Positions 13,377-55,297 of a stretch of 60,982 bases of DNA are shown piece by piece. This stretch comes from Elusimicrobiales bacterium. Lineage in GTDB: Bacteria > Elusimicrobiota > Elusimicrobia > Elusimicrobiales > UBA9959. The position numbers and the translations under genes are program-made. Under the pieces are notes generated by a model. The model was not told the origin of the DNA. It saw only the letters and a list, made by a program, of their open reading frames with translations, and did no database searches. The stretch covers positions 1-60,982 of the forward strand of contig JAMPXK010000010.1 in NCBI GenBank assembly GCA_023701245.1, read 5' to 3'. Numbering within the stretch: position 1 is the first letter of the stretch; the number at the start of each line of letters is the position of its first letter.

Positions 13377-15619
13377 GGAACGACGATACGCTGATGCACG
13401 TGCGCGGCACGTCGCAGTTCGTGGACGATATCCCCGTGCCCGGCTGCCTGCACGCCGTACTCTTCACCTCGCCTGTGCCCAAAGGCCGTATACGCTCGCT
13501 GGACGTCTCCAAAGCTGCCGCTGCGCCCGGCGTGGCCGCCGTCTACACGCACAAGGACGTGCCCGGCCTCAACCAGGTAGGCCATGTTTTCAAAGACCAG
13601 CCGCTGCTGGCCGTGGACGCCGTGGAATACATAGGCCAGCCTATAGCGCTGGTAGTGGCGGACACCAGGCGCAACGCCAAGAGGGCACTTAAGCTCATAG
13701 CGGCCGACATAGAGAAACTGGAGCCCATGCTGGACCCGCGTGCGGCGGCCGCCGCCGGGCAGATACACGGCAAGAAGCGCGTGCAGATTCACGGCGACCC
13801 CGACGCCGCTTTCGCCAAATGCAAACATGTTTTCGAAGGCCGCCTCGCGAGCGGCCCGCAGGAACACTTCTATTTCGAAACCCAGCGCGCCCTGGCCGTG
13901 CCCGGCGAGCATGACACCATAAAAGTGTACGCCAGCGCCCAGTCGCCCGGAGCCTTCCACCATCACCTGGCCGAAGTGCTGAACATACCCATGCACAAGG
14001 TGGAGTTGGATATCCGCCGCCTGGGCGGCGGTTTCGGCGGCAAGGAATCCACCGCCGTGTGGATAGTGGCCCCGGCCATGGCGGCCTTCCTGCTCAAGCG
14101 CCCGGTCAAGCTCATGCTGGAGCGCAACGACGACATAGCCACCACCGGCAAGCGCCACGCCTACGAATACGACTACCGCCTGGGCCTGGACGCCGAGGGC
14201 AATATACTCGCCTACGACATAACCCTCTACCAGCAGGCCGGCGCCTGCACCGACATTTCCCTGGCCGTTCTGGGCCGCTCTTTCCTGCATGTCTGCGGTT
14301 CCTACCGCATTCCCAATATCCGCGTCACGGGCCTGAGCTGCCGCACCAATATTCCCCCGAACAACGCTTTCCGCGGCTTCGGCGTGCCGCAGGGCACTTT
14401 CGCCATAGAGGCGGCCCTCTCCGCCGCCGCCCACAAACTGGGGCTGGAGCCGGAGGCCCTGAAGAAGAAGAACCTGCTCAAGGACGGCGACACCCTGCCT
14501 TACGGGGTGACGCTCTCCGGCGTGAATTCCGCCCGCTGCTGGGAAACCTTGGACGCCAAGGCGCATATAGCCCGGCGCCGCGCCGCCGTGGCCGCCTATA
14601 ACAAGGCCCACAAGGATACCAAGAAGGGCCTGGCGGCGGTGCCGGTCTGCTTCGGCATCTCTTTCGCCCAGACCGCGCTCAACCAGGCGAGCTCTCTCGT
14701 GCACATCTACGTGGACGGCAGCGTGGCCGTGAGCACCGGCGCCGTGGAAATGGGCCAGGGCGTTAACGCCAAGATCCGTATAGTGGCGGCCCGCACGCTG
14801 GGCGTGCCGCTGGAGCGGGTGCGGGTGGACACCACCAATACCTCGCGCATACCCAACGCTTCCCCCACCTCGGCCAGCACCGGCGCGGACCTAAACGGCA
14901 TGGCCACCAAGTACGCCTGCGAGCGCCTGCGCGACCGCCTTATAGCTTTCGCGGCCGGCGTTCTCAAGGCCGACCTTGCCGCCGTTACCATTAAGGACGG
15001 CGAGGTACTGGTTTCCGGCAAACCCGCGGGCCTGGGCTGGAACAAGCTGGCCAAGGACGCCCAGTGGGCCCGGGTGGACCTGGGCGAGCACGCTTTCTAC
15101 GCCACGCCGAACCTGCATTATGACATGGAGAAGGAACAGGGCCGGCCTTTCGCTTATTACGCCTACGGCACCTCGCTTACCGAGGTGAAACTGGACTGCC
15201 TGCGAGGCACCTACACGCTGGAAGCGGTGGACGTGGTGCAGGACGTGGGCGAATCCCTGAGCCCGGCCATAGACCTGGGCCAGACCGAAGGCGCCGTGAT
15301 ACAGGGCATGGGCTGGGCTACGATGGAGCAGCTCCGCTACGCGCCCGACGGCCGCGTGCTTACCGGCGTGAGCGCCTACAAGGTGCCGGACATCAAGTTC
15401 CTGCCGGCGCATTTCGACGTGACCCTCCTTAAGGACTCGACGAATCCCTACGCCGTCTGCAATTCCAAGGCCGTGGGCGAGCCGCCCTTTGTGCACGGCA
15501 TAGGCGCCTATCTGGCCGTGGCCGACGCCCTGCGCGCCGCCCGCCCGGACAAGGAGCCGCCGATGCTGCCGCTCACCCCGGAAAAGGCCTTCATGCACCT
15601 GCACGGGGGCGAAAAGTGA
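13373..15619 (+). CDS. xdhB: Xanthine dehydrogenase molybdopterin-binding subunit
   Basis: The catalytic Mo subunit (748 aa), converting hypoxanthine/xanthine towards urate. The residues that define purine hydroxylases are present. They are Q190 (ASAQS, bovine Q767), E225 (GGGFGGKE, bovine E802), R302 (GRSF, bovine R880), F336 in FRGFG (bovine F914), the FGISF phenylalanine (bovine F1009) and base E703 (AVGEPPF, bovine E1261). Cofactor-binding motifs such as GAVEMGQGVNAK are also intact. E225 and R302 together argue for a genuine purine substrate rather than an aldehyde. It overlaps xdhA and the moaD-like gene by 4 bp each. Confidence 0.93.
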   Translation: MRNDDTLMHVRGTSQFVDDIPVPGCLHAVLFTSPVPKGRIRSLDVSKAAAAPGVAAVYTHKDVPGLNQVGHVFKDQPLLAVDAVEYIGQPIALVVADTRRNAKRALKLIAADIEKLEPMLDPRAAAAAGQIHGKKRVQIHGDPDAAFAKCKHVFEGRLASGPQEHFYFETQRALAVPGEHDTIKVYASAQSPGAFHHHLAEVLNIPMHKVELDIRRLGGGFGGKESTAVWIVAPAMAAFLLKRPVKLMLERNDDIATTGKRHAYEYDYRLGLDAEGNILAYDITLYQQAGACTDISLAVLGRSFLHVCGSYRIPNIRVTGLSCRTNIPPNNAFRGFGVPQGTFAIEAALSAAAHKLGLEPEALKKKNLLKDGDTLPYGVTLSGVNSARCWETLDAKAHIARRRAAVAAYNKAHKDTKKGLAAVPVCFGISFAQTALNQASSLVHIYVDGSVAVSTGAVEMGQGVNAKIRIVAARTLGVPLERVRVDTTNTSRIPNASPTSASTGADLNGMATKYACERLRDRLIAFAAGVLKADLAAVTIKDGEVLVSGKPAGLGWNKLAKDAQWARVDLGEHAFYATPNLHYDMEKEQGRPFAYYAYGTSLTEVKLDCLRGTYTLEAVDVVQDVGESLSPAIDLGQTEGAVIQGMGWATMEQLRYAPDGRVLTGVSAYKVPDIKFLPAHFDVTLLKDSTNPYAVCNSKAVGEPPFVHGIGAYLAVADALRAARPDKEPPMLPLTPEKAFMHLHGGEK

Positions 15620-23366: not shown

Positions 23367-25706
23367 CTACTTCTTTACGGCTTTGATGGCGGCCAGGACT
23401 TTTTCCGGGGTGAACGGGAATTCGTTCAGGCGGGCACCGGTGGCGTTGTAGATGGCGTTGCCGATGGCGGGCGCGGGCCCGTTGATGCAGATCTCGGAAA
23501 CGCTCTTGGCGCCGAAGGGGCCGGTGTCCTCGTAGGAGGGCACGAGTATCGCCTTTATGGGCGGGCGGTCGCGCATGGAGTAGATGTGGTAGTCCGCGAA
23601 CGAGGCGTTCTGCATCTTGCCCTTCTCGTCGAACAGGTACTGCTCGGTGAGCGCGTAGCTGATGCCGTTGAGGGTGCCGCCCTCGGTCTGGCCCTCGCAG
23701 AGCGTGGGGTTGACCGCGGTGCCGCAGTCTATGGTCGAGACATAGTTGAGCACCTTCACAAAGCCCGTCAGCGTGTCCACTTCCACTTCCGCGAAATGTG
23801 CCGCGAAAGGCGGCGGGGATTTCTTGGTGATGTGGGACGCGGTGCCGATGATCTGGTATTGGTTCTTCTGGTACAGCGAATAGTTGGCTATGTCGCTGTA
23901 AGAGACCTTCTTGGAACCGTCGGCGTTGAGCACATGGGCGTCCTCGCAGTGGACTTCTTCCACTTTGAGGCCCAGCATCTCGGCGCCGGTGGCCAGTATC
24001 TGGCGCTTCGCGTCGGCGGCGGCCTTGCGCACCGCCTCACCCGACAGGTAGGTGGTGGAAGAGGCATAGGCGCCCACGTCGAAAGGCGTCATGTCCGTAT
24101 CCGACGAGTAGACTATCATCTTGTCGGTGGTGGTCTCCAGCTCTTCGGCCGCTATCTGGGCCAGCACCGTATCCGAGCCGGTGCCCAGGTCCGTGGCGCC
24201 CACATTGAGGTTGAAAGAGCCGTCCTCGTTGATCTTTATGGTGGCGGCGCCCATGTCTATGTCCGGGATGGACGAGCCCTGCATGAGGCAGCACATGCCT
24301 ATGCCACGGCGGTAGCGGCCGGTCTTCTTGCGCCAGTCCTGGCGACCCTCCCAGCCGGCGGCCTCCGCGCCCTGCACTATACACTCGGCCAGGGCATTGG
24401 AGCCCACGGTCATGGGCAGGCCCTCGCGGCCCTCGCCCAGCGCCTGGAAGATAGGCGAGCCTTCGCCGGGGCGGATGTGGTTGATCTGGCGGAACTTCAT
24501 GGGGTCCATGCCTATGGCCTCGGCCATGTGGTCCATCAGGGACTCGATGGCGAAGAAGGCCTGCGTGGCCCCGAAGCCGCGGTAAGCACCGCCGACGGGC
24601 AGGTTGGTGTAGTAGGACTTGCCGTCGAAGAGGATATTGTCGCAGTGGTACAGCGGCAGGGTCTTGCCGCCGGAGCACGACACCACGGTAAGGCCGTGGC
24701 CGCCGTAGGCGCCGGTATTATTGATGCACTCCAGGCCTATGGCGGTGATGGTGCCGTCCTTCTTTACACCGGTGCGCAGGCGGATGCGGAAGGGATGGCG
24801 CGTGCGGCCGGTGCGGAAGGTCTCCTCGCGGTCGAAGCGCCAGAGGCAGGGGCGGCCGGTGCGCAGGGCGAACATGGCCGTAACGTCTTCCAGAAGTATC
24901 TCCTGCTTGCAGCCGAAGCCGCCGCCGATGCGGGGCTTCACCACGCGGATCTTCTGCACGGGTATGCCCAGCGTGCGCGCCACTATGCGGCGGCAGTGGA
25001 AAGGCACCTGCGTGGAGGTGGTAATGAGGATGCGCCCGGCGGGGGTCATCTGCGCCATGGAGGTATAGGGCTCTATGGGGCAATGCTGGGCGTACGGGGT
25101 CTCGTACATCTCGTCGAAGGTAAAGTCGGCCTCGGCCATGCCTTTCTTGAAGCTGCCGGCCTCGCAGGCCACATGGGCCACCAGGTTCTTCTTGGGCTCG
25201 TAGACGATCGGGATCGGCACATGGGCCTCGGGCTCGTCGTGAATGACAGGCGCGCCCGGCGCCATGGCCTCGTCCAGCGTGAAAACGGGCTTAAGCACCT
25301 CGTATTCGACTTTTATAGCCTCGAGCGCGGCCAGGGCCTGCTCTTCGGTCTCGGCGGCCACGGCGGCCACGCGGTCGCCCACGAAGCGCACCTTATTGTC
25401 GAACATGAAAGTGTCGTAAGGAGACGGCTCAGGGAAACCCTGGCCGGCGGTGCAATGCACGATGCGCGGCACATTGCCGTGCCAGAGCACGCATTTTACG
25501 CCGGGCATCTTCTCCGCCTTGCTCACATCCATCTTCTTGATGCGGGCGTGGGCGTGCGGGCTCCAAAGCATCTTGATAACGAGCGCGTCCTTGGGCAGGA
25601 AGTCGGCCACATAGGAATCCTTGCCGAGCGCCAGCTGCATGGCGTCTATCTTGGTGACGGAAGTGTTGACCTGCTTGAGGTTCTTGGCGAGTTCGTGCCT
25701 TTTCAT
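23367..25706 (-). CDS. Molybdenum hydroxylase, Mo-binding subunit (xanthine dehydrogenase family, non-canonical active site)
   Basis: A 779-aa catalytic subunit of a second Mo hydroxylase. Cofactor motifs are present: TTSTQVP (the conserved Gln), RIGGGFGCKQE, GGAYRGFGATQ, GATDLGTGSDTV and a putative base Glu in AKSVSEICING. The position of bovine Glu802 is Gln268, and no arginine sits at the bovine Arg880 position (about 32 residues before AYRGFG the sequence reads SCSGGK). The substrate is therefore probably not xanthine bound as in XDH; another purine, another N-heterocycle or an aldehyde is possible. The ATG at 25706 overlaps the Fe-S gene by 4 bp; a longer upstream reading is rejected. 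Confidence 0.88.
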   Translation of the reverse strand: MKRHELAKNLKQVNTSVTKIDAMQLALGKDSYVADFLPKDALVIKMLWSPHAHARIKKMDVSKAEKMPGVKCVLWHGNVPRIVHCTAGQGFPEPSPYDTFMFDNKVRFVGDRVAAVAAETEEQALAALEAIKVEYEVLKPVFTLDEAMAPGAPVIHDEPEAHVPIPIVYEPKKNLVAHVACEAGSFKKGMAEADFTFDEMYETPYAQHCPIEPYTSMAQMTPAGRILITTSTQVPFHCRRIVARTLGIPVQKIRVVKPRIGGGFGCKQEILLEDVTAMFALRTGRPCLWRFDREETFRTGRTRHPFRIRLRTGVKKDGTITAIGLECINNTGAYGGHGLTVVSCSGGKTLPLYHCDNILFDGKSYYTNLPVGGAYRGFGATQAFFAIESLMDHMAEAIGMDPMKFRQINHIRPGEGSPIFQALGEGREGLPMTVGSNALAECIVQGAEAAGWEGRQDWRKKTGRYRRGIGMCCLMQGSSIPDIDMGAATIKINEDGSFNLNVGATDLGTGSDTVLAQIAAEELETTTDKMIVYSSDTDMTPFDVGAYASSTTYLSGEAVRKAAADAKRQILATGAEMLGLKVEEVHCEDAHVLNADGSKKVSYSDIANYSLYQKNQYQIIGTASHITKKSPPPFAAHFAEVEVDTLTGFVKVLNYVSTIDCGTAVNPTLCEGQTEGGTLNGISYALTEQYLFDEKGKMQNASFADYHIYSMRDRPPIKAILVPSYEDTGPFGAKSVSEICINGPAPAIGNAIYNATGARLNEFPFTPEKVLAAIKAVKK

Positions 25707-26218
25707 TTCTTCCCCCCTTTGGCGGAGGCTTTCTTTTTTGGCTCGGCGGCGGCGCGGTCGAGCGTCTTGCGCAAGGCCACCCAGATCTTCTCGTAGCCGG
25801 TGCAGCGGCAGAGATTGCCGTCCATGTATTCCTTGGCCGTCTCGTCGGAAATGTCCTTCTCGGCCTCCATCAGGGCGGTGGCGCTCATGATGATGCCGGG
25901 GATGCAGTAGCCGCATTGCACGGCGCCGGCGGCCACCAGCTCCTGCTGTATCGGGGCCGGCTTGTCGTAGGTGCCCATGCTCTCGATGGTGCGCACCTTG
26001 CGCCCTTCGGCCTGCATGGCGTAGAGCAGGCAGGCGTACACCGCGCGCCCGTCCATGATGACGGTGCAGGCGCCGCAGGTGCCCTGGCCGCAGCCGTACT
26101 TGGTACCCTTATAGCCCTCGCGGCGCAGCAGGTCCAGCAGTTTCTCGTCGGGGCGGGTGGCGAAGGTTTTCTTTTCGCCGTTAAGCGTGAAGGAAACGGA
26201 GCAGGTATGGGTCTTCAT
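25703..26218 (-). CDS. Molybdenum hydroxylase, [2Fe-2S] subunit
   Basis: A 171-aa iron-sulfur subunit with the two expected domains. The plant-type cluster has CGQGTCGACTV and the later ACLLYA cysteine. The helical domain has QCGYCIPG and NLCRCTGYEKIW. A Lys-rich tail (AAEPKKKASAKGGKK) extends beyond the usual end. It passes electrons from the Mo site to the FAD subunit. The gene order FAD, Fe-S, Mo with abutting or overlapping ends is typical of three-subunit hydroxylases. Confidence 0.93.
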   Translation of the reverse strand: MKTHTCSVSFTLNGEKKTFATRPDEKLLDLLRREGYKGTKYGCGQGTCGACTVIMDGRAVYACLLYAMQAEGRKVRTIESMGTYDKPAPIQQELVAAGAVQCGYCIPGIIMSATALMEAEKDISDETAKEYMDGNLCRCTGYEKIWVALRKTLDRAAAEPKKKASAKGGKK

Positions 26219-27064
26219 TTAGGCGGTCCTCCCGCGGGCGAACTCGGCCGCCCTTTCGAGGGCGTCCACTATGGAAACTTCGGCGAGGTTGGCGACATAT
26301 TCCGCGCTCATGCCTTCCTGTTTGCACCACTTGGCGTCGTTATTGGCCAGCGAGGCGGCGGCGCGGAAGGTCTCGGCGGCGGGAGCCTTGCCGACCAGCG
26401 CGGCTTCCACGGCGCGCAGGCGCTTGGGGAAGGGGATGGCGGAGCCGGCGGCCACGCGGGCGGACTTGATGACCCCGCCGTCTAGTTCCAGCAGGGCGGC
26501 TATGGTGACCATGGAGAAAGCGGCGGCATTGCGGGCGGCCTTCACGGAACCGAAGCCGTGATGGGCCTTTAGCACCGGTATTTTCACTGCGGCGAGCAGG
26601 TCCCCGCCGCGGAACAGACGGGCCGGCTGCGAGGAGAAATATTCGTCGGCGCCCATCTCCTTGGTCTTGCCCGAGTAGATGACCATTTTGGCGTCCATGG
26701 CGAGCAGCACCACGGGCAGGTCCGCCCAGGGGAAGACGCGGCAGATATTGCCGCCGATGGTGGAGACGTTGCGGATCTGGTGGGTGGAGATGCGCCGGCA
26801 GATCTCGTGCATGGCCCAGCGGGGGCCGCGGTAGCGCTGTATGTCGGACAGCGGCGTGGCCGCGCCTATCTCGAAATAATTGCCCTTCTGGCGTATATAG
26901 GAAAGGCCGAGCCGCGTAACGTCCACGGCGGAGACGGGGGTTTTGCCGGGCATGAAATGCAGGGCGGTGCCGCCGGCCAGGGGCATGCCCTTGGGCCCGA
27001 GTTTGCGCAGGCTGGCGCGCGCTTGCGCGAGGCTCTCGGGACGGATGAATTCACATAGCTTCAT
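26219..27064 (-). CDS. Molybdenum hydroxylase, FAD-binding subunit
   Basis: A 281-aa flavoprotein subunit (CO-dehydrogenase flavoprotein fold). Near the N terminus is PLAGGTALHFMPGK, then HQIRNVSTIGGNICRVFPWADLP, the usual FAD-binding segments, and a C-terminal domain beginning near GFGSVKAARN. It receives electrons from the [2Fe-2S] subunit and probably reduces NAD or another carrier. It is first in the three-gene operon, with AGGACC upstream of the ATG and an AT-rich minus-strand TATATC/TATATT promoter-like patch in 27085-27115. Confidence 0.9.
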   Translation of the reverse strand: MKLCEFIRPESLAQARASLRKLGPKGMPLAGGTALHFMPGKTPVSAVDVTRLGLSYIRQKGNYFEIGAATPLSDIQRYRGPRWAMHEICRRISTHQIRNVSTIGGNICRVFPWADLPVVLLAMDAKMVIYSGKTKEMGADEYFSSQPARLFRGGDLLAAVKIPVLKAHHGFGSVKAARNAAAFSMVTIAALLELDGGVIKSARVAAGSAIPFPKRLRAVEAALVGKAPAAETFRAAASLANNDAKWCKQEGMSAEYVANLAEVSIVDALERAAEFARGRTA

Positions 27065-28896: not shown

Positions 28897-28897
28897 G

Positions 28898-32112: not shown

Positions 32113-32913
32113 TCAGCGCAGGCGCATATGCCCGGCGTCGCGCTTGTAATGGAACTTGATGATCTCGGCAAGTATTGAAACGGCTATCTCCCCCGGAGCC
32201 TTCCCACCCAGGTTCAGGCCGACAGGCGAGTGGACCCTGGGGTCTTTCAGCGGAAAAAGCTTCTTCTTGCCCAGCAGGCGGAAGATCTCCCCCACCTTGT
32301 CCTTGCTGCCTATCATCCCGATATAGGCGGCCTTCGTGCGCAGCAGGGCCTCCAGGCACTCCCGGTCCAGCGCGTGGCCGCGGGTAACTATAACGGCATA
32401 AGTGTCCGCGTCCACGCCGGCCTTGGCCACGGCCTTGTGGGGAGCCTCGTTGATTATATCCAGCGCCCCGGGGAATCTTTCGGGATTGGCGAATTCCGCC
32501 CTGTCGTCGGCCACCAGGAAGGGATAGCCGGCCAGGCGGCAGGCTTCGGCTATCTTGACACCCACGTGGCCGCCGCCCAATATCAGCACCTTGAAAGGGT
32601 TCTTGTAAACGTCTATAAAGACTTCCATCTTCCCCATGCAGATCATGCCGGTATTGCCTTTGGGCTTGAGTTCGAAAGAGAACTTGCCGCCTTCGCCGGC
32701 CTTCACGCACTCTACGGCCTTCTTTATCACCAGGGCTTCCACGGTGCCGCCGCCCACGGTGCCCTCTATGGCGCCGTCGGCGTAGACCAGCATCCGGGCG
32801 CCGGCGTCGCGCGGGGTCGAGCCGCCCGCTTCTATAACGGTGACGAAGGCCGCGGCGCGGCCGGCGTCTATGGCTTCGGCGAGGAGTTTTATGATGTTCT
32901 TCTGGTCTTTCAT
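32113..32913 (-). CDS. xdhC: XdhC-family molybdenum cofactor insertion/sulfuration protein
   Basis: XdhC binds molybdenum cofactor, promotes its sulfuration and inserts it into xanthine dehydrogenase-type enzymes. The 266-aa protein has the N-terminal XdhC/CoxI domain (GGSTPRDAGARMLVYADG, EGTVGGGTVEA) and the C-terminal Rossmann domain (LILGGGHVGVKIAEACRLAG, YIGMIGSKDKV). It is last in the operon headed by 8-oxoguanine deaminase and containing mocA. Two Mo hydroxylases in the window (11982-15619 and 23367-27064) are the obvious clients. Confidence 0.92.
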   Translation of the reverse strand: MKDQKNIIKLLAEAIDAGRAAAFVTVIEAGGSTPRDAGARMLVYADGAIEGTVGGGTVEALVIKKAVECVKAGEGGKFSFELKPKGNTGMICMGKMEVFIDVYKNPFKVLILGGGHVGVKIAEACRLAGYPFLVADDRAEFANPERFPGALDIINEAPHKAVAKAGVDADTYAVIVTRGHALDRECLEALLRTKAAYIGMIGSKDKVGEIFRLLGKKKLFPLKDPRVHSPVGLNLGGKAPGEIAVSILAEIIKFHYKRDAGHMRLR

Positions 32914-34469: not shown

Positions 34470-35704
34470 GTGTACCTCAGAAAAACCCAGTATATTATGG
34501 CATTTATGAAAGTGAGCGGTACCCCGACGCGGGCGAACTCCAGGAAGGTAATGGTGGCGCCGGAGCGCTTCTCCGCGGTCTGGATGATGATAACGTTGCT
34601 GGCGGCCCCGAGGATGAACAGGTTCCCGGCGAAAGTGGAAGCGGCGGCCAGCGCCATCAGTTCAGGCGTGCCGGCCCCTGCGTGCTGGAGCATGGGCAGG
34701 TACAGCGCCACCAGCGGCACATTGGAAATAAGCTGGCTGAGCAGCACGCTTACGGTCATTATAGGGCCAAGGCCGGTAATGTCCGCCCCCGAACCGGCGA
34801 TCAGCCCCTGGAAAAAGCCCGTGTCCCAGACGGCGCGCATCAGCACGAACATGCCGGCGAAGAAAGCCAGCGTACTCCAGTCCACCCGGCGGACCAGCTC
34901 TAACCGGCGCGGGCTCAGCAGCAGCCCCGGCGCGGCGGCCGCGAGGGCGATCCAGGTAAGGCGGAAATCCCAGGCGGGGTTCAGCGAGACCAGCAGCACC
35001 TTGGCGGCTATGGCCGCCCCAAGCGCTCCGGCGGTGACCTTGGCCAGGCGCGCGAGGGCCGCGTCGCGTACCGGTTCCTGGGAATGCCTCAATTCCGTCT
35101 TCCGGAATTCCGCCCGGTAGAAATGCCTTACCAGCAGGAAAACCGCGCCCAGGTTCAGGAGCGTGGGCAGGGCCAGGTATTTCAGGAAGGTCAGGAAAGG
35201 CGCGGCCACCTCCCCCTTCACCGCCACCAGCAGGTTCTGGGGATTGCCTATAGGGCTCATGACGCTGCCCGTGGTGATGGAGAAGGCCAGCGCCAGCAGA
35301 AGTGCCTTGGGCGGGATGGAATGCTTGCGCGCCAGCAGCAGCGCCACCGGCGTGCCGGCTATGGCCAGCGTGTCGTTCATCAGCAGGGCAGAAGCGAGCC
35401 CCATGAAGAAGACCAGCGTCAGCAGCAGCCCCTCCTCGGTGCGCGCCCGCTTGAAGACCTCGAATTCCGCGTGGGCCAGCCAGCCGCTCAGCTCCAGCGT
35501 CTGCCCGGCGGCGAACATGCCGAAGAGAAAGACCATGACGTCCCAGTCTACGGCGGCCGCGGCGGCGGCGGGGCTTATGCCGCCGGCCAGCAGCACGGCC
35601 GCCGCCCCGGCGCACATCACCTGCCAGATCCCGAAACGGAACCTGCCCGCCTGCCGCACGGCGATCAGCAGGAAGACGGCCGCGAGTACCGCCAGGGGGA
35701 ACAT
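34466..35704 (-). CDS. ArsB/NhaD-type ion transporter (12 predicted helices)
   Basis: A 412-aa polytopic membrane protein of the ion transporter superfamily that holds ArsB, NhaD and SLC13 carriers. Family features include the MVFLFGMFAAGQTLELSGW block, the re-entrant-loop LLMNDTLAIAGTP, SPIGNPQNLLVAVKG (NPQN motif) and the second-half counterpart LSQLISNVPLVALYLP followed by AGNLFILGAASNVIIIQ. No arsenic genes are nearby. Its place between mocA and a cyclase in the purine operon makes uptake or efflux of an organic anion or oxyanion (for example molybdate-related or a purine product) thinkable, but substrate cannot be assigned. Confidence 0.8.
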   Translation of the reverse strand: MFPLAVLAAVFLLIAVRQAGRFRFGIWQVMCAGAAAVLLAGGISPAAAAAAVDWDVMVFLFGMFAAGQTLELSGWLAHAEFEVFKRARTEEGLLLTLVFFMGLASALLMNDTLAIAGTPVALLLARKHSIPPKALLLALAFSITTGSVMSPIGNPQNLLVAVKGEVAAPFLTFLKYLALPTLLNLGAVFLLVRHFYRAEFRKTELRHSQEPVRDAALARLAKVTAGALGAAIAAKVLLVSLNPAWDFRLTWIALAAAAPGLLLSPRRLELVRRVDWSTLAFFAGMFVLMRAVWDTGFFQGLIAGSGADITGLGPIMTVSVLLSQLISNVPLVALYLPMLQHAGAGTPELMALAAASTFAGNLFILGAASNVIIIQTAEKRSGATITFLEFARVGVPLTFINAIIYWVFLRYT

Positions 35705-36303
35705 CAGCCCGCCTTTACCAGCGCGTCGTAATCTTCGGGCGTGTCGAAATCCCTGATGATCCCGGGATCGCTCACTTCAAGGTCGGTTATCTTAACAGAG
35801 GAATGGTGGGTGACCCAGTGCAGGCCCTTGTCTGGCGGGGCCTCGAAGCAAAGTGCCCGGTAGGCGCCCGGGATGAGTACGGGGTGACCGCGCTTGAGGC
35901 GGGCGTCGGCGGCCCTGTACGTGCGCGGGATGACCAGCGATCCCTTGGCCGAGCGCCAGCAGTCTATAACTTTGACATACGTCTCCGCCTGGATGGTAGG
36001 CTGGTCGGCCAGGCAGACCAGGTAGCCTTCGGCCGGCGCCGCTGCGTCCAGCCCCGCGCGCAGCGAGGAAAGCTGCCCGTGTTCGGGGTGGGGATTGACG
36101 GTCACTTTTTCCCCGGCAGGCTGCCAGGCCGCGAGGATCTCCGCCGAAGCCCGCCCCAGCACCACCACCCTGTCCTCCACGCCGGCCTTGCGCAGCGCGG
36201 CGCAGACGTGCTCTATGAAGGGCCGGCCGCGCCACTGAAGCAGGACTTTGGGCCTGCCCATCCTGGAAGATTCCCCGGCGGCGAGCACTATGGCGGAAAG
36301 CAT
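35704..36303 (-). CDS. mocA: MocA-like molybdenum cofactor nucleotidyltransferase
   Basis: MocA transfers CMP onto molybdenum cofactor (MobA would use GMP), making the dinucleotide form used by many bacterial xanthine dehydrogenase-family enzymes. The 199-aa protein has the GT-A-like N-terminal signature AIVLAAGESSRMGRPKVLLQWRG, the LVCLADQPTI motif typical of MocA, and the RGHPVLIP segment. The ATG at 36303 is chosen; an upstream reading to 36570 runs into the phosphofructokinase gene. It sits 11 bases after pfk and overlaps the transporter by one base. Confidence 0.9.
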   Translation of the reverse strand: MLSAIVLAAGESSRMGRPKVLLQWRGRPFIEHVCAALRKAGVEDRVVVLGRASAEILAAWQPAGEKVTVNPHPEHGQLSSLRAGLDAAAPAEGYLVCLADQPTIQAETYVKVIDCWRSAKGSLVIPRTYRAADARLKRGHPVLIPGAYRALCFEAPPDKGLHWVTHHSSVKITDLEVSDPGIIRDFDTPEDYDALVKAG

Positions 36304-36314
36304 GCCGGTCGCCT

Positions 36315-37424
36315 TCAATCCCCGAAGGAAATGCCCAGGCTGCGCGCGGTAAGGATGGAATCGCAGTTGAGCGGGACGGTCTTCAGGCGCTGGGTAGCCT
36401 GGGCCAGCGGCACGTAGCGTACCCTGGGCGGGTCCAGCGCCACCATTACGCCGCTGCGGCCCTCGTCCAGCGCCCGCACGGCGGCCGCGCCGAAGCGCAG
36501 GGAAATAAGGCGGTCGAAAGTGGTGGGGCTGCCGCCGCGCAGCAGGTGTCCCAGCACGACGGTGCGGCATTCCCGCCCGGTCAGTTCCTGCAGTTCTTTG
36601 GCCACGCGCTCGCCGCAGCCGCCCAGTTTCTCCTGCCGGCCCAGCTCTTTGCTGACCACGCAGACGCCGCCGCCCTTGGGCCTGGCGCCCTCGGCCACTA
36701 CCACTATGGCGAAATACTTATTGCGCTTCTCCAGCGCCTTCATGGCCGCCGCTACCTTGCGGATATCGTAGGGGATCTCGGGGATCAGGATGGCGTCGGC
36801 CGTGCCGGAGATGCCCGTATTGAGCGCTATCCACCCGGCGTAGCGCCCCATCACCTCTATGACCATTATCCTGCGGTGGGCCTCGGCGGTGGAGTGCAGC
36901 CGGTCCAGGCATTCCGTAGCGAAGGAAACCGCGGTGTCGAAACCGAAAGTGGCCACAGTGCCTTTGAGGTCGTTATCGATGGTCTTGGGCACGCCTATCA
37001 CGCGCAGGCCTCTTTGCGCCAGGAGGTTGGCTATCCCCAGCGAGCCGTCGCCGCCCAGCGCCACCAGCGCGTCTATCCCGTTGCGCTTGAAGGCGGCCAC
37101 CAGCTCGCCGGTACGGTCCTTTTCATACCAGCGGCCGTCAGGGCCCAGCGTCGGGTATTTGGCGGGGTTGCCCTTGTTGGTGGTGCCCAGGATGGTCCCG
37201 CCCAGGTGCGTGATGCCGCGCACCCGGCCGCGGGTCAGCGGCAGCAGGCCGCCCTCGGGATACTCGCCCGGCATCAGCAGGCCGTTGTAGCCGTCGCGTA
37301 TGCCCACCACCTCCCAGCCCTTGTTCAGGGCCGCGATGACCACCGACCTTATGACGGCGTTCAGCCCCGGGGCGTCCCCGCCCCCGGTGTTTATGGCGAT
37401 CTTTCTTATCCTGGCTTTCGGCAT
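36315..37424 (-). CDS. 6-phosphofructokinase, group III type
   Basis: Phosphorylates fructose 6-phosphate in glycolysis. The 369-aa protein has the PFK motifs NTGGGDAPGLNAVI, GGTILGTTNKG, GGDGSLG, PKTIDND, MGRYAGWIAL and LGHLLRGGSPTTFDR. The donor-specificity positions are mixed. GGDGS has Gly at E. coli position 104, as in ATP enzymes. PKTIDND has Lys at position 124, as in PPi-dependent and group III enzymes. ATP is the more likely donor, but pyrophosphate is not excluded. Its place inside a purine-catabolic operon is unexpected; gaps to neighbours are only 11-12 bases. Confidence 0.9.
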   Translation of the reverse strand: MPKARIRKIAINTGGGDAPGLNAVIRSVVIAALNKGWEVVGIRDGYNGLLMPGEYPEGGLLPLTRGRVRGITHLGGTILGTTNKGNPAKYPTLGPDGRWYEKDRTGELVAAFKRNGIDALVALGGDGSLGIANLLAQRGLRVIGVPKTIDNDLKGTVATFGFDTAVSFATECLDRLHSTAEAHRRIMVIEVMGRYAGWIALNTGISGTADAILIPEIPYDIRKVAAAMKALEKRNKYFAIVVVAEGARPKGGGVCVVSKELGRQEKLGGCGERVAKELQELTGRECRTVVLGHLLRGGSPTTFDRLISLRFGAAAVRALDEGRSGVMVALDPPRVRYVPLAQATQRLKTVPLNCDSILTARSLGISFGD

Positions 37425-37436: not shown

Positions 37437-38813
37437 TCAGATCCCCGCTTTCCTGTAGAGCGAAGCCGCGGCCTTGTTGGCGCGCCGCGCCAGTTCGAAT
37501 TCATCCACCTGCGTCAGGCGCCCGTCGCGGACCACCACCTTGCCGTTCACGACGGTATACTTGGTGCGGTGGGAGGCGCCGCAGAACAGCAGCGAGGCCA
37601 GCGGGTCGGACTTGGAGCCGGCGAAATCCAGCCCGCTCACGTCGAAGATGGCCAGGTCGGCGGCCTTGCCGGGTTCGATGGAACCGATATCGCGGCGCCC
37701 GAGCACCGCGGCGCCGCCGCGGGTGGCGAGCCGGAAGGCCTCCCGCGCGGGCATGGCTTTCACGCCGGTGCCTACGCGGTGCACCAGCATGCACTGCCGC
37801 ACCTCGCCCAGCATGTCGCAGGAATCGTTGGAGGCGGAGCCGTCCACGCCCAGACCTACCGGCACTTTATGCCTGAGGAACATGGGCACCGGGGCGATGC
37901 CGGAACCCAGCCGCAGGTTGGAGCAGGGGCAATGGGCCACGCCGGTATGCGTGCGCCCCATCTTTTTAGCCTCGGCCTCGTTGATATAGACGCAGTGGGC
38001 GAACCAGGCGTTGCCTTCCTCCACCCAGCCCACGGACTCCATGTATTCCAGCGGGCGCATTTTAAAGAGTTTTTTGCAGAAGGCTTCCTCGTCCCTGGTC
38101 TCGGCCAGGTGGGTGTGCATGCGCACGTCCCACTTCTTGGCCATCTCCGCCGTGAGCTTCAGCAGTTCCGTGGTGACGGAGAACGGCGAGCAGGGCGCCA
38201 TGGCCACGTGCGTCATGGCGAACTTCTCCCGGCCGTGGAACTTGTTGATGAGGCGCTCGCAGTCCTTGAGGATAAAGTCCTCTTTCTGCACGACGGAATC
38301 CGGCGGCAGGCCGCCCTTGCTGCGGCCGCGCGACATGGAACCGCGGGTGGCCGTGAAGCGCATGCCCACGGCGCGCGCGGCCTCTATCTGCGTGTCTATG
38401 AAGAACCCGCTGTTCTTCTTCGGGAACAGGTAGAGGTGGTCGGAACTGGTGGTGCAGCCCGTAAGCAGCAGTTCGCCCAGGCCCGCCTGCGTGCTGGCGT
38501 AAATAGCCTCGGGGTTCACGTGCTTCCAGATGTCGTAGAGATAGACCAGCCAGTCGAAGAGCTCCGCGTCCTGCACCTTGGGCAGGTTGCGGGTCAGGGT
38601 CTGGTACAGGTGGTGATGGGTGTTCACGAAGCCGGGCAGGACCACGCAGCCCTTGGCGTCCAGGACGGAATCGGCCTTGACCCTGAGGCCTTTGCCGACC
38701 TTCTTTATTTCCGCGCCCTCGATATAAACGTCGCCGCCGCTGATCTCGCGGCCGGCGTCATCCATGGTCGCCAGCACCAGGGCGTTCTTTACCAAAAGGG
38801 TCTTGGGCTTCAT
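37437..38813 (-). CDS. 8-oxoguanine deaminase (amidohydrolase family)
   Basis: Deaminates 8-oxoguanine to urate. The 458-aa protein belongs to the cog0402 amidohydrolases. Metal ligands are visible in GFVNTHHHLYQTLTRN, HTHLAET and WFAHCVYIN, and the catalytic Asp is in GLGVDGSASNDSCDMLGEVRQCM, a block characteristic of 8-oxoguanine deaminases. The TTSSDHLYLFP segment also matches. The related hydroxyatrazine hydrolases are the main alternative. It is the first gene of the six-gene minus-strand operon and is divergent from the DPD-like flavoprotein and SsnA, which makes a purine role convincing. Confidence 0.85.
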   Translation of the reverse strand: MKPKTLLVKNALVLATMDDAGREISGGDVYIEGAEIKKVGKGLRVKADSVLDAKGCVVLPGFVNTHHHLYQTLTRNLPKVQDAELFDWLVYLYDIWKHVNPEAIYASTQAGLGELLLTGCTTSSDHLYLFPKKNSGFFIDTQIEAARAVGMRFTATRGSMSRGRSKGGLPPDSVVQKEDFILKDCERLINKFHGREKFAMTHVAMAPCSPFSVTTELLKLTAEMAKKWDVRMHTHLAETRDEEAFCKKLFKMRPLEYMESVGWVEEGNAWFAHCVYINEAEAKKMGRTHTGVAHCPCSNLRLGSGIAPVPMFLRHKVPVGLGVDGSASNDSCDMLGEVRQCMLVHRVGTGVKAMPAREAFRLATRGGAAVLGRRDIGSIEPGKAADLAIFDVSGLDFAGSKSDPLASLLFCGASHRTKYTVVNGKVVVRDGRLTQVDEFELARRANKAAASLYRKAGI

Positions 38814-38900: not shown

Positions 38901-41351
38901 ATGAAGAAGATCACTTTCCTCACCGACGCCCAGCTCAAGACCGAGGCCGAACGCTGCCTGTACTGCGAGGACAAGCCCTGCCAGAAAGCCTGCCCGGCCG
39001 ACTGCTCCCCGGCGGACTTCATAATGGCCGTGCGCCAGATGGCGGACTCCGATTTCAAGCGCTCGGCCGCGCTGATCATGGGGCACAACACCTTCGGCGG
39101 CGTCTGCGGCGCGGTCTGCCCCGACTGGTTCTGCGTGAAGGCCTGCTCCCGCAAGCTCTTCGACAATCCCATCCAGATCCCCGCGGTGCAGGCCGCCGTG
39201 GTGCAGAAAGCCAAGGAACTGGGCGTCATGCCGAAGTTCAGGCAGGCCAGGCCCAACGGCAAAAAAGTGGCCGTAATAGGCGGGGGCCCAGCCGGCTTCT
39301 CGGCCGCGGGCACGCTGGCCCAGCTCGGCTACAAGGTGGACGTGTTCGAGAAGGACAAGAAGGCCGGCGGCGCCTGCAACCTCATCCCGGACGCCCGCTT
39401 TCCCAAAGAAGTGCTGAAGACCGAAATAGAGTGGGTGAAAGGCCTCGGCGACATAACCGTCAAGACCGGCGCCGGCGTCAAAGACCCCGCCTCGCTGCTC
39501 AAGAAATACGATTCCGTCATCGTCACCGCCGGGGTGGAAGAGCAGCTCAAGCTCGGGATAGAGAACGAGACCCTGGGCGTGGAAGGCCTGGAGTACCTGC
39601 GCAATACCGGCCGGTACAAGGTGAAGGGCAAGAACGTGGCCGTGATAGGCGGCGGCGCGGTGGCGGCCGACTGCGCCATGAAGGCGCTCACGCTGGGCGC
39701 GGCCCGGGCGGAGATCTTCACGCGCAAGAATATCGGCGACATCCAGCTGCCGGAGCACGAACTGCGCGATATCCTGAAGGCCGGCATCAACATCAACGGC
39801 CGCTCGCGCATCACCGGCATACTGAAGGGCGGCGGCATAAGGATCGTCCGCCTCGACGACAAGTCCCGGGACGTCCCCGGCACCGAACAGGTCCGCACGG
39901 ACATCCAGTTCACCGTGCTGGCCATCAAGAACATCCCGGTCTTTACGGACAAGAAACAGAAGGGCGTCTTCCTGGCCGGCGACTGCCGCAACGGCGCGGC
40001 CACCGTGGTGGAGGGCACCGCCTCCGCCAAGAACGCCGCGCTGGAAGCCCACGCCTTCATGCAGGGCAAAAAGGCGCCCGCCATCCCGGACAACAAGAAA
40101 AGCCATGTAGTCCTGGCCGGCCGCGACCTCACGCCCGTGGACCTGACCACGGACTTCTTCGGGCGCAAGCTCAAGTCCCCGTTCATAATCTCCGCCTCCC
40201 CCCACTCCGACGGTTACGAGCAGGTGAAAGCCGCCTACGAGGCCGGCTGGCCCGGCGTGGTGATGAAGACCGCTTTCGACGGGCTGCATATCCACATCCC
40301 CTCCGAATACATGGTGACCTTCAACGAGAGCACCTACGGCAATTCCGACAATGTGAGCGGCCACCCGCTGGACCGCGTCTGCAAAGAAGTGGCCCGCCTG
40401 GTGAAGGAATACCCGGACCGCCTCACCGCGGCCTCCACCGGCGGACCGGTGACCGGCGACGACGAGTTCGACCGGAAAGGCTGGCAGTCCAATACGCTGA
40501 AGCTGGAGAAGGCCGGCGCGATGGCCATAGAATACTCGCTGTCCTGCCCGCAGGGCGGCGACGGCACCAAGGGCGACATCGTTTCCCAGGACCCGGAGCT
40601 CGCGGCCAAGATCATAGGCTGGGTGATGGAAGTTTCGGACCCCGAAGTGCCGAAACTGTTCAAGCTGACCGGCGCCGTCACCTCCATCTGGCAGGTGGTC
40701 AACGCTATAAAGCAGGTCTACGCGAAATACCCGCACAAGAAGGCCGGCATAACCCTGGCCAACTCTTTCCCCGCGCTGGCTTTCCGCCCGCGCATGAGCG
40801 GCAAAGGCAAATGGGAAGAAGGCATGATAGTGGGCATGAGCGGCGAGGGCGTGGCCCCCATCAGCAACCTCACCATAGCCAAGGCAGTAAATCTCGGCGT
40901 GCCGATCTCAGGCAACGGCGGGCCCATGGACTACAAGGCCGCGGCGCATTTCCTGGCGCTGGGCGCCAAGTCCGTGCAGTTCTGCACCATAGTGATGAAG
41001 TACGGCTTCGGCGTAATCGGCGAACTGGAGAGCGGCCTCAGCCACATGCTGGAAGAGAAAGGTTACAAGTCGGTGGAAGAGTTCATAGGCTGCGCCCTGC
41101 CCGGCCCCGTCACCAACTTCCCCGACCTCACCCCGGTAAAGAACATTCCCTCGGTAGAAGCCGCCCTCTGCCGCCATTGCGGCAACTGCGAGCGCTGCGG
41201 TTATCTCGCAGTGAAACTCGACGGCCAGAAGGTGCCGCAGTTCGACGCTTCCAAATGCATAGGCTGCTCGCTCTGCGTGAAGAAGTGCTTCTCCGGCGCG
41301 CTCAAGATGCGCAAGCGCACCTCCGCGGAACTCAAGGTCTGCCCCGACTAA
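38901..41351 (+). CDS. Compact dihydropyrimidine-dehydrogenase-like Fe-S flavoprotein (PreT-PreA fusion type)
   Basis: An 816-aa fusion with DPD domain order. It has N-terminal twin [4Fe-4S] cysteines (RCLYCEDKPCQKACPADC and CGAVCPDWFCVKAC), an FAD site (GGGPAGFSAAGTLAQLGY), a NAD(P)H site (GGGAVAADCAM), a DHOD-like FMN barrel (from about residue 420; SGNGGPMDYKAA), and C-terminal ferredoxin cysteines (LCRHCGNCERC, CIGCSLCVKKC). The DPD active-site loop LSCPHG...GLACGQDPE reads LSCPQGGDGTKGDIVSQDPE here. The catalytic Cys is replaced by V561, with S562 beside it. It is about 200 aa shorter than mammalian DPD. Flanking aminohydrolases suggest reduction of a purine-derived ring or electron bifurcation rather than uracil reduction. 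TGGAG precedes the ATG. Confidence 0.85.
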   Translation: MKKITFLTDAQLKTEAERCLYCEDKPCQKACPADCSPADFIMAVRQMADSDFKRSAALIMGHNTFGGVCGAVCPDWFCVKACSRKLFDNPIQIPAVQAAVVQKAKELGVMPKFRQARPNGKKVAVIGGGPAGFSAAGTLAQLGYKVDVFEKDKKAGGACNLIPDARFPKEVLKTEIEWVKGLGDITVKTGAGVKDPASLLKKYDSVIVTAGVEEQLKLGIENETLGVEGLEYLRNTGRYKVKGKNVAVIGGGAVAADCAMKALTLGAARAEIFTRKNIGDIQLPEHELRDILKAGININGRSRITGILKGGGIRIVRLDDKSRDVPGTEQVRTDIQFTVLAIKNIPVFTDKKQKGVFLAGDCRNGAATVVEGTASAKNAALEAHAFMQGKKAPAIPDNKKSHVVLAGRDLTPVDLTTDFFGRKLKSPFIISASPHSDGYEQVKAAYEAGWPGVVMKTAFDGLHIHIPSEYMVTFNESTYGNSDNVSGHPLDRVCKEVARLVKEYPDRLTAASTGGPVTGDDEFDRKGWQSNTLKLEKAGAMAIEYSLSCPQGGDGTKGDIVSQDPELAAKIIGWVMEVSDPEVPKLFKLTGAVTSIWQVVNAIKQVYAKYPHKKAGITLANSFPALAFRPRMSGKGKWEEGMIVGMSGEGVAPISNLTIAKAVNLGVPISGNGGPMDYKAAAHFLALGAKSVQFCTIVMKYGFGVIGELESGLSHMLEEKGYKSVEEFIGCALPGPVTNFPDLTPVKNIPSVEAALCRHCGNCERCGYLAVKLDGQKVPQFDASKCIGCSLCVKKCFSGALKMRKRTSAELKVCPD

Positions 41352-41354: not shown

Positions 41355-42680
41355 ATGAAGAAAACCATACTTATCAAGAACGGCATTATAGCCACGCTCG
41401 GCGAAAAGAACAAGGTCCTGGCCGGGCACGCGCTGCTTATAGAGGACGGGCTGATAAAGAAGATCGGCCCGCAGAAGAACTTCAAGGGTAAATACTCCAA
41501 GGTCCTGGACGCCGCCGGTAAACTGGTGCTGCCCGGTTTCATAAACGCGCACATGCACTTTTACAGCACCTTCGCGCGCGGCCTGGGCAAGGCCGACCCC
41601 TCCCGGAACTTCGTGGAGATCCTCAACAACCTCTGGTGGCGCCTGGATAAAAAGCTTACCAACGCCGACTCCTACTACAGCGCCGTCATCCCGCTCATCA
41701 ACGCCATCCGCAAAGGCACCACCACGCTCATAGACCACCACGCGAGCCCCTTCGCCATCACCGGCTCCCTCGCGGCCGTGGAGAAGGCCGTGCGCGAGAC
41801 CGGCCTGCGCGCCTGCCTGTGCTACGAGGTCTCCGACCGCGACGGCAAGGAGAAAGCGAAGGAGGGCCTGGACGAGAACACCGCCTTCCTGGCCAACGCG
41901 GCCGCCGCCGGCGATAACGTGATAAAGGCCATGTTCGGCCTGCACGCCTCCTTTACCCTCTCCGACGAAACGCTGGAAGAGGCGGCTTACCGCGGCCACA
42001 AGCTGGGCGCGGGCTTCCATATCCACACCGCCGAATCGCAGGCGGACCAGCTGCACTGCGAATCCCATCACAAGATCCGCGTGGTAGAGCGCCTGCGCGA
42101 CTACGGCATCCTGGGGCGCAAGTCCATCGCCGCCCATTGCGTGCACGTCTCGGAGAAGGAACTCGATATCCTCCGGGAAACCGGCACCGCCGTGGTCCAC
42201 AACCCGCAGTCCAACGCCAACAACTCCGTCGGCATCGCCGACATCACCGCCATGACGCAGAAGGGCGTACTGGTGGGCCTGGGCACCGACGCCATGACGG
42301 TGAATATGCTGGAGGAGGTCCGCTGCGCCCTCTGGCTGCAGCACCTCAAGCGCGACCCGTCGCAGGGCTTCATGGAGGCCGCCAACGCGCTGCTGGTGAA
42401 CAACGCCAAAATAGCCAACCGCTATTTCAAAGGCCTGGGAGAGCTGAAGGAAGGCTTCGCGGCGGATATCGCCATAATGGATTATCTCCCCCCCACGCCC
42501 ATGGACGCGGCCAACTTCGCGGGGCATTTGATCTTCGGCATCAGCCAGAGCGCCGTGGATACCACCATAGCCGCGGGCCGGGTGCTTATGGAAGGCAAAA
42601 AGCTCAAGCTGGATATCGACGAGGAAGAAGTCTCGCGCAAGTCCGCCGAACTGGCCAAAAAGTTATGGAGCCGCTTCTGA
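41355..42680 (+). CDS. ssnA: SsnA-type aminohydrolase
   Basis: A 441-aa cog0402 amidohydrolase matching E. coli SsnA in length and in blocks such as GFINAHMHFYSTFARGL, NNLWWRLDKKL, TTLIDHHASPFAITGSL, HIHTAES, AAHCVHVSEKEL and the catalytic GLGTDAMTVNMLEE. ssnA is conserved in anaerobic purine-degradation clusters beside ygfK and xanthine dehydrogenase genes. The exact substrate is not settled, but a deamination or ring-opening step is expected. It starts three bases after the DPD-like gene, so the two are co-transcribed and probably act in one pathway. Confidence 0.9.
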   Translation: MKKTILIKNGIIATLGEKNKVLAGHALLIEDGLIKKIGPQKNFKGKYSKVLDAAGKLVLPGFINAHMHFYSTFARGLGKADPSRNFVEILNNLWWRLDKKLTNADSYYSAVIPLINAIRKGTTTLIDHHASPFAITGSLAAVEKAVRETGLRACLCYEVSDRDGKEKAKEGLDENTAFLANAAAAGDNVIKAMFGLHASFTLSDETLEEAAYRGHKLGAGFHIHTAESQADQLHCESHHKIRVVERLRDYGILGRKSIAAHCVHVSEKELDILRETGTAVVHNPQSNANNSVGIADITAMTQKGVLVGLGTDAMTVNMLEEVRCALWLQHLKRDPSQGFMEAANALLVNNAKIANRYFKGLGELKEGFAADIAIMDYLPPTPMDAANFAGHLIFGISQSAVDTTIAAGRVLMEGKKLKLDIDEEEVSRKSAELAKKLWSRF

Positions 42681-44791: not shown

Positions 44792-44803
44792 AGGACCCTA
44801 ACC

Positions 44804-51231: not shown

Positions 51232-51235
<4 letters not shown>
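50390..51235 (-). CDS. HAD-family phosphohydrolase with C-terminal extension
   Basis: A 281-aa HAD phosphatase with the nucleophile motif DIDGTLIK, a helical cap (about residues 20-95), the Ser/Thr-type GLGTGN motif and the metal-binding GDTHRDVEAAKEAG. About 70 residues follow the HAD core (SDLKPWLIWLGL onwards), including RGTYICPDSPIEHAHYGRTGMDLRDIE, which I do not recognise. It overlaps the SIS gene and hutI by 4 bp each. A sugar phosphate is the natural guess given the SIS neighbour. Confidence 0.82.
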
Positions 51236-52499
<1,264 letters not shown>

Positions 52500-52500
<1 letters not shown>

Positions 52501-52997
52501 CAGCGGAAGTTTTCGAACTGCAGGCTCAGGCCGTAATCCCCGGAGCGCAGCAGGCTCATCACGTTCTGCAGTTCGTCCTTCGACTTGGAAGTGACGCGCA
52601 GGGTATCGCCCTGTATGGAAACGTTGGCCTTCAGCTTCTGGTCCTTGATGGTCCGTATCATCTCCTTGGCCTTCTCCTGGGGTATGCCCTGCTGCACCTT
52701 CACCGCCATCTTGGCCGTGCCGCCCAGGGCGCTCTCCACCTTCTGCCCCTCGAAATTCTTCACCGGCAGGCCGCGCTTGGAGATCTTGGTCAGGAGCACG
52801 TCGTAAAGCGCCTTCACCTTGTAGTCGTCGGAAGACTGCAGCATTATGGTATTGGCCTTCTTGTCGAAGTTTATCTCGGATCCGGAATCCTTGAAGTCGT
52901 AGCGGTTAATCACTTCCTTCATGGCGATGGCGATCGCCTCGTCCACCACCGTATATTCCACTTTGGAAACCACGTCGAAGCTGAAGTCAGAAGCCAT
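52500..52997 (-). CDS. yajQ: YajQ family nucleotide-binding protein
   Basis: A 165-aa protein of the UPF0234/YajQ family, starting [20 protein letters not shown] and containing YDFKDSGSEI, VKNFEGQKVE and the C-terminal RVTSKSKDELQNVM. Two RRM-like ferredoxin folds are typical. Members bind nucleic acid or nucleotides, and a Xanthomonas homologue binds cyclic di-GMP. It overlaps hutI and the lipoprotein gene by one base each, so it is translated from the hut transcript although no link to histidine degradation is known. Confidence 0.93.
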
Positions 52998-53616
52998 TAT
53001 TTTTCTCCCTTGCCCTTTTGCAGGGTCTCTTTTATGGACTCGGCCATGGCGGCCAGCGCCTTATTTACGGAATCGGCGTCGTAGTCCTTTTCCACGGAAC
53101 TGCTCAGCAGGATCCTGCCGGTGGTCACATCCACGAACTTCACGGTAAGCCCGCTGAAAATGGTATTGGTCTCCACCCTGACCTGGCCGGGCACCTGTTT
53201 GACGCCAGGCTGCGGCCTGCGGCCGGGGCGCGCCGGCATGGGCGGCGCCTTTACCGCGGGCGTGACGGTGCGGACGTTCTCCCTGCGCACCCTGTAGGAA
53301 CCGGTGACCACCGCGCGCACGCCGGCCAGTTTGCCGACCTGCGCCAGTTCCTCGGGGGCCATCGCCCCGGAAAGCGCGGCCTTCTGCTCGCCCAGCACCT
53401 TTTCCAGCTGCGCCCGTTCCATCACCTCGAACCCGGCGTCCATCAGGTAAGTGGTAAAGGCTTCGGCCAGCGACAAACCCGTCTCCTCATCCCGTCCGCT
53501 GAACGGCATCACGGCCACCCGGCCGGCGGGATCGAAGTCTCCCCGCACCGCGGTCCGGACCTTGGCGCCGCAGGCGGCGAGCGCCGCCGCGGCGAGTACC
53601 GTCAGCAAGAGGCGTT

Positions 53617-53620: not shown

Positions 53621-55275
<1,655 letters not shown>

Positions 55276-55297
55276 CTGACTTCCTCCTTAAACCCGT

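Follow-up and report, generated by a model that had tools for sequence, protein, structure and literature searches.

A predicted one-chain, NAD(P)H-linked yanthine reductase of the UacX type in Elusimicrobiales and in bacteria of other phyla

Known routes of urate reduction and the fused reductase

The reductive, oxygen-independent breakdown of urate was described for enzymes of E. coli and C. difficile by Li et al. 2025 (PMC12507026) and is the subject of a commentary by Percudani 2025 (PMC12990295). In this pathway, XdhD forms yanthine by reducing urate; SsnA, together with either YgfK or UacX of C. difficile, converts it to ureidomethyl-hydantoin, and the later steps are assigned to HyuA, YgeW or UacY, YgeY and YgeX. 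UacX is a homologue of dihydropyrimidine dehydrogenase (DPD) that is reported to lack a flavin adenine dinucleotide (FAD) domain and probably uses ferredoxin (PMC12507026). Barba et al. 2013 (PMC4016543) delineated an uncharacterised DPD-related clade, X1, which is encoded beside hyuA, ygeW, ygeY, ssnA and xdhABC, branches before PreA/PydA and was assigned no function. Here we describe a fused DPD-like reductase, called UacX-long in this analysis, encoded next to ssnA in a 60,982-nucleotide stretch of DNA from an Elusimicrobiales bacterium (assembly GCA_023701245.1, contig JAMPXK010000010.1, positions 1 to 60,982; hereafter the window).

We hold with good confidence that this protein uses NAD(P)H to reduce yanthine (2,8-dioxopurine), as a one-chain enzyme of the UacX type in the reductive, oxygen-independent urate pathway. 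The reaction class has been known since 2025; what is new is that the enzyme is a single chain linked to NAD(P)H, and how widely it is spread. It also appears likely, although we are somewhat less sure of this wider claim, that UacX-type barrels joined to a FAD/NAD(P)H module in one chain constitute a third yanthine reductase architecture, that the pathway occurs in many environmental phyla including Chloroflexota, and that barrel type and electron module vary independently. If so, anaerobic reductive urate breakdown would not be mainly a gut trait and would be spread through groundwater and sediment bacteria, and in the fused protein biochemistry and engineered urate-lowering strains would gain an alternative, driven by NAD(P)H, to UacX, which presumably draws on ferredoxin. 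The combination of a retained cysteine with a changed pocket would further provide a direct route to what turns a pyrimidine reductase into a purine reductase.

By its published description, UacX of C. difficile, which was assayed with SsnA on yanthine, likewise has a DPD-related DHO_dh barrel that replaces YgfK in the ssnA cluster, and this trait, a DPD-type barrel linked to ssnA, is present in the window family. Whereas UacX is reported without a FAD domain, the window protein carries Fer4_20 and Pyr_redox_2, a full FAD/NAD(P)H module, in the same chain as the barrel (PMC12507026). The X1 clade shares the hyuA/ygeW/ygeY/ssnA/xdh context with several loci of the family, among them locus L198, and, compared by description, the window family is likely to be X1; a fused FAD/NAD(P)H module, which the window protein has, is not described for X1 in the text consulted (PMC4016543). 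In the open-access literature on UacX and yanthine, on ygfK-ssnA and on links between DPD and purines, the fused form appeared in no title or abstract found, and the word 'fused' is absent from the main text of PMC12507026.

YgfK of E. coli is also an NAD(P)H-dependent yanthine reductase with FAD and iron-sulphur (Fe-S) modules, and its gene also adjoins ssnA; unlike the window protein, it has the barrel before the GltD-like part and what seems to be a barrel family of its own, which hhalign matched to the window-family barrel only weakly (probability 2.6%, E 0.018, 89 columns). Mammalian DPD and bacterial PreT-PreA share module order, fold and catalytic cysteine with the window protein. They act on pyrimidines, whereas the window family differs at two pocket positions; the protein is 22-23% identical to pig DPD (structural match) and 27-32% to the plasmid PreA sequences listed.

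Module order, catalytic cysteine and substrate pocket

The reductase gene (Table 1) starts with ATG and encodes 816 amino acids, on which Pfam places Fer4_20 (7-106), Pyr_redox_2 (121-363), DHO_dh (415-717) and Fer4 (779-802). Module order and fold are those of DPD, and the protein is 209 residues shorter than pig DPD (1025 residues); an earlier note on this DNA had claimed that all DPD cofactor modules are kept in a chain about 200 residues shorter than mammalian DPD, and both claims hold. The AlphaFold2 model, built from 57 family sequences, has a mean predicted local distance difference test score (pLDDT) of 88.6 and a predicted template modelling score (pTM) of 0.87; pLDDT falls below 50 for at least three consecutive residues only at 552-554, in the loop that follows the catalytic cysteine. 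When this model was compared with the PDB by Foldseek, the top 39 matches were all pig DPD (query TM-score, TMq, 0.81-0.83; 22-23% identity), and ranks 40-47 were Nfn/Xfn subunits, which resemble the FAD module. The Fe-S cysteines of the N-terminal module (C19, C22, C27, C31, C69, C73, C78 and C82) and of the C-terminal one (C757, C760, C763, C766, C786, C789, C792 and C796) are invariant in 57/57 family sequences, the window included. The same is true of Gln97, which the phmmer alignment pairs with pig DPD Q156, a residue that we take to be an Fe-S cluster ligand.

None of the best 25 of the 72 NCBIfam models that matched the protein reached its cut-off. The YgfK model TIGR03315 scored 132.5 bits against a cut-off of 835.3, its best stretch covering only the GltD-like part; this part of the profile (442-722) matches residues 22-298 of the window protein, ahead of the barrel, which bears out the reversed module order relative to YgfK that had been proposed from the outset.

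The earlier note had also held that the catalytic cysteine of DPD is missing, having located it in the loop GLACGQDPE. That loop does read GDIVSQDPE here, with V561 and S562, as stated; its cysteine in DPD is C684, however, and the residue changed in the PDB mutants is another one. According to the PDB titles, 1h7x is the C671A and 7m31 the C671S mutant of pig DPD, and the phmmer alignments read NLSCPHG in the wild type (1gt8), NLSAPHG in 1h7x and NLSSPHG in 7m31. C671 aligns with Cys549 of the window protein (EYSLSCPQG). When 34 family barrels, the window's among them, were aligned with nine PreA-type barrels and pig DPD, the position of C671 proved to be Cys in 34/34 family and 9/9 PreA-type barrels, whereas that of C684 is Val in all 34 family barrels and Val or Ile in 9/9 PreA-type barrels, including E. 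coli PreA. Loss of the catalytic cysteine is therefore rejected: the alignment, the check that the note itself had named, places a conserved Cys at the active base.

The equivalents of DPD K574, N609, S670, C671 and N736 are identical in the 34 family barrels. With the whole-chain DPD fold, the retention of the catalytic Cys, K574, N609 and N736 would also suit a true dihydropyrimidine dehydrogenase, a uracil/thymine reductase fused as in animals and only incidentally placed among purine genes. We regard this as distinctly unlikely. The PreA model NF006183 gave 207.4 bits, below its cut-off of 335, and the positions of DPD E611 and N668, presumably pyrimidine-contact residues in DPD structures, are Asp483 and Ser546 in 34/34 family barrels and remain E and N in 8/9 PreA-type barrels. 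The usual neighbour of the fusion, moreover, is ssnA, and a separate preT-preA pair accompanies it in at least two genomes (at locus L197 itself, and in genome G244, which holds locus L107); since both genomes carry such a pair, their fusions are probably not pyrimidine reductases. The family barrels are split from the nine PreA-type barrels and pig DPD by a 100/100 branch in a tree that is unrooted, has long branches and includes neither UacX nor X1.

The smaller side chains of Asp483 and Ser546 would suit a two-ring substrate. We give this pair little weight, and reject it as proof of substrate, because a barrel without purine neighbours (locus L217) has the same pair. L217/L223 (G319:C22) is a stand-alone PreA-like barrel beside a PreT-like gene and a two-part transketolase, and L217 branches first on the PreA side of the drawn tree.

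A third role would be mainly to shuttle electrons among NAD(P)H, ferredoxin and the molybdenum hydroxylases, with a barrel that no longer takes a substrate; the earlier note had entertained such routing of electrons from the molybdenum hydroxylases. The six redox centres predicted in the protein and the Nfn/Xfn-like FAD module would fit it. The catalytic residues compared are nevertheless invariant, and conservation is higher in the barrel than in the N-terminal module (57-74% versus 36-57% identity in tblastn of the window protein against the relatives' loci). Because the flavin mononucleotide (FMN) site residues compared are kept invariant, the routing idea finds no support, and we consider it highly improbable.

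In a yanthine reductase of this build, NAD(P)H would reduce FAD, and the Fe-S clusters at the N- and C-terminal ends of the chain would relay the electrons to the FMN of the barrel. When DPD reduces uracil, hydride goes to C6 and a proton to C5. If DPD geometry is laid over yanthine, FMN hydride would by analogy reach C6 of the purine ring, the carbon deoxygenated by the XdhD-type enzyme, and Cys549 would protonate C5. SsnA would then hydrolyse the dihydro product and so pull the unfavourable reduction forward; with hydride at C6 and a proton at C5, the product left by SsnA would have the carbons of ureidomethyl-hydantoin. Observed are the domains, the conservation of the catalytic residues and the linkage to ssnA, to an xdhD-type gene and to other pathway genes; we infer what the enzyme reduces, how electrons travel, which ring carbons receive hydride and proton, and whether NADH or NADPH is used.

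Occurrence with ssnA within and beyond the phylum

Within the genus, the protein is present in 23 of the 24 other genomes (E 7.8e-257 or better, in some cases in pieces), and the 24th (G011) holds a 46-residue piece of it at a contig end. In another family of the same order, none of 16 genomes gave a match reaching 1e-60. Across 294 genomes of the phylum, counting SsnA when over its profile cut-off and the fusion protein at E 1e-60 or better, SsnA was found in 61, the fusion protein in 66 and both in 60 (Fisher p = 2e-54, which overstates the association because the genomes are related). Only G145 has SsnA over cut-off without the fusion protein.

A YgfK search of the same 294 genomes returned at least 11 in which the match begins within the N-terminal barrel (G068, G112, G134, G145, G184, G199, G207, G235, G240, G269 and G282). 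None of the 11 listed has the fusion protein, and the SsnA profile matches each of them at 232-474 bits, with G145 alone over the cut-off. It thus looks as if one yanthine reductase has been replaced by another across genomes of the phylum. Six YgfK-type loci were read (L230-L235): five have the barrel in ORFs (open reading frames) of 669-774 amino acids, and in five of the six blastp gave no match to the GltD part. The YgfK-type barrels of L231-L235 lack the GltD-like FAD module, and their host genomes have an SsnA-like gene and no fusion.

Two members of the window family, at L214 and L215 (genomes G310 and G309), have 711-712 amino acids: the barrel and the FAD part are present and the subdomain that binds NAD(P)H is absent, so that they may take electrons from another donor. 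No ssnA match was found in the stretches read around these two loci; elsewhere, G310 has an SsnA match over cut-off, and those of G309 are weak or partial. The view that barrel and electron module vary independently rests on these two members and on the five YgfK barrels without a GltD module.

A scan of genome contigs found 293 relatives, of which the best 80 loci were analysed. In all 80, one and the same ORF matches the N-terminal module, at least in part, and contains SLSCPQGG, a count that holds for the best-scoring 80 of the 293, is possibly biased towards close kin, and takes as fused any match to any part of that module. In nine of these loci a contig end cuts off the start of the gene, and at L158 the first part of the N-terminal module lies in another frame. 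The loci are not independent: some stem from genomes whose sequences went into the query (L126 and the first query row are 100% identical), and L148 and L157 belong to the same genome. The relatives come from Elusimicrobiota, Chloroflexota, Cloacimonadota, Acidobacteriota, Ignavibacteriota, Bacteroidota, Myxococcota, Planctomycetota, Armatimonadota, Spirochaetota and Verrucomicrobiota, among others. In the phylum of the L128 genome, 7/149 genomes have a family barrel (688-795 bits), and the next best matches, at 221 bits or less, are PreA-type where read.

ssnA lies within the locus stretch in 58/80 and directly downstream on the same strand in 53/80; among the 72 loci that extend 1.5 kb or more downstream, 51 have it in that position. 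Among the 22 genomes without ssnA at the locus, 16 have SsnA over cut-off elsewhere. Li et al. list SsnA in Elusimicrobiota and state that Chloroflexota lack YgfK and UacX (PMC12507026). Of the 18 loci labelled Chloroflexi, Chloroflexota, Anaerolinea or kin, or Aquidulcis, 16 have ssnA in the stretch, and the occurrence of fusion and ssnA in these loci runs against that statement. The fullest cluster, L198, reads fusion-ssnA-ygeY-hyuA-xdhA-xdhC-ygeW within 14 kb, and a YgeX-like gene follows the fusion in L206 and ssnA in L207.

No UacX turned up in scans of plasmids, phages and viral contigs. The plasmid scan gave PreA-type matches (27-32% identity, at most 31.7% among the matches listed), the phage scan four matches, one PreA-like at 31.7% and three weak, and the viral-contig scans with the barrel and with SsnA no relative. 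A Pusillibacter plasmid with preA, amidohydrolase and carbamoyltransferase genes was set aside as a candidate; it has a hyuA-like gene, and no ssnA match was reported.

Pathway genes and other features of the window

The fusion gene stands between ssnA, which begins 3 bp past its stop codon on the same strand, and a divergent 8-oxoguanine deaminase gene 87 bp upstream (Table 1). This arrangement had been noted before, and both neighbours score over their NCBIfam cut-offs.

Table 1. Coordinates of the fused reductase and of associated genes in the window
Feature	Position	Strand	Evidence
Fused DPD-like reductase (UacX-long)	38901..41351	+	modules from N- to C-terminus: Fe-S, FAD, NAD(P)H, FMN barrel (holding Cys549), ferredoxin
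ssnA, aminohydrolase that opens the ring in reductive urate breakdown	41355..42680	+	TIGR03314 504.3 bits (cut-off 455.5); NF005540 539.1 bits (cut-off 444)
8-oxoguanine deaminase, would deliver urate	37437..38813	-	NF006055 644.4 bits (cut-off 532)
XdhD-type molybdenum subunit, predicted urate-to-yanthine reductase	23367..25916	-	best NCBIfam TIGR03313 690.1 bits, below cut-off 1101.9
[2Fe-2S] subunit of the XdhD-type enzyme	25703..26218	-	Fer2, Fer2_2
FAD subunit of the XdhD-type enzyme	26219..27064	-	FAD_binding_5, CO_deh_flav_C
Xanthine dehydrogenase small subunit (Fe-S and FAD), would make urate from xanthine	11982..13376	+	TIGR02963 308.3 bits, below cut-off 467
Xanthine dehydrogenase molybdopterin subunit	13373..15619	+	TIGR02965 755.7 bits, below cut-off 849.5; without the XdhD Glu insert
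XdhC-type maturation factor for molybdenum hydroxylases	32113..32913	-	XdhC_C, XdhC_CoxI
MocA-like molybdenum cofactor cytidylyltransferase	35704..36570	-	TIGR03310 138.5 bits, below cut-off 186.45

The XdhD-type molybdenum subunit scores nearly as high with the XdhA model NF043082 (680.5 bits, cut-off 780) as with TIGR03313. It carries a GEG motif (ALGEGREG) whose Glu aligns with E606 of E. coli XdhD and is missing in E. coli XdhA; E606 has been suggested as a possible urate-orienting residue (Li et al. 2025, PMC12507026). The real start of this subunit probably lies about 80 codons inside the ORF, because the XdhA profile starts at residue 84, and that of the MocA-like protein probably near 36306, because its profile matches from residue 92. 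By its sequence, the second molybdenum enzyme (11982-15619) looks like an ordinary xanthine dehydrogenase. Elsewhere in the genome, YgeW (636.5 bits, cut-off 500) and YgeY (574.5 bits, cut-off 321.5) are over their cut-offs.

The presence of 8-oxoguanine deaminase and an ordinary xanthine dehydrogenase in one window would also agree with reduction of a different purine (urate, xanthine or 8-oxoguanine), the XdhD step being skipped or reordered, as would the missing XdhD Glu motif in 24 of 35 molybdenum subunits from the relatives' loci (ORFs of at least 600 amino acids). Against this, XdhD-type subunits with the motif occur in the window and in the other 11 of these relatives' subunits, the XdhD proteins of C. 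difficile and E. coli themselves share only 25.6% identity, and SsnA was assayed on the product of yanthine reduction (PMC12507026). We therefore think a different purine unlikely and retain yanthine as the predicted substrate. The suggestion of the earlier note that the protein is functionally analogous to YgfK, with a ring derived from a purine as its substrate, is supported by the co-occurrence with SsnA, the apparent replacement of YgfK barrels, the XdhD-type enzyme in the window and the published pathway (PMC12507026).

Several findings weigh against a yanthine reductase. In its own genome (92.8% complete), YgeX was not found (best 38 bits, cut-off 532.25), the HyuA candidate (D-hydantoinase) is under its cut-off (369.6 versus 393.25 bits), and the YgeW, YgeY and HyuA candidates sit on contigs other than that of the fusion. 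The YgeX-like genes of the relatives also fall below 532.25 bits (363.2 in L206; 205.8 in L207, where the gene is cut by the contig end), and the 24 molybdenum subunits without the Glu motif include that of L198. Six of the 22 genomes without ssnA at the locus have no SsnA over cut-off, one of them without any match, and 6/66 phylum genomes with the fusion protein likewise lack SsnA over cut-off, although two of these (G016 and G232) have a strong match under it; kinship inflates the Fisher value. The E611D/N668S pair also occurs in the L217 barrel, with no ssnA in 19.8 kb, and the presumed kinship with C. difficile UacX (Q181U4) rests on the published description of that enzyme.

Other genes of the window were recorded in passing. 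Two adjoining ORFs with TldD/PmbA C-terminal domains (27190-30589, minus strand) lie beside the XdhD-type operon. Directly downstream of ssnA, an aconitase is followed by a two-part ATP-citrate lyase (42866-47949, plus strand), and apparent histidine breakdown genes for an amidohydrolase, urocanase and an aromatic amino acid (histidine) lyase occupy 51232-56815 (minus strand). Two adenylate/guanylate cyclase genes lie at 32934-34469 and 58127-60295, both on the minus strand; one has a weak HAMP match below the gathering score and the other a CHASE2 domain.

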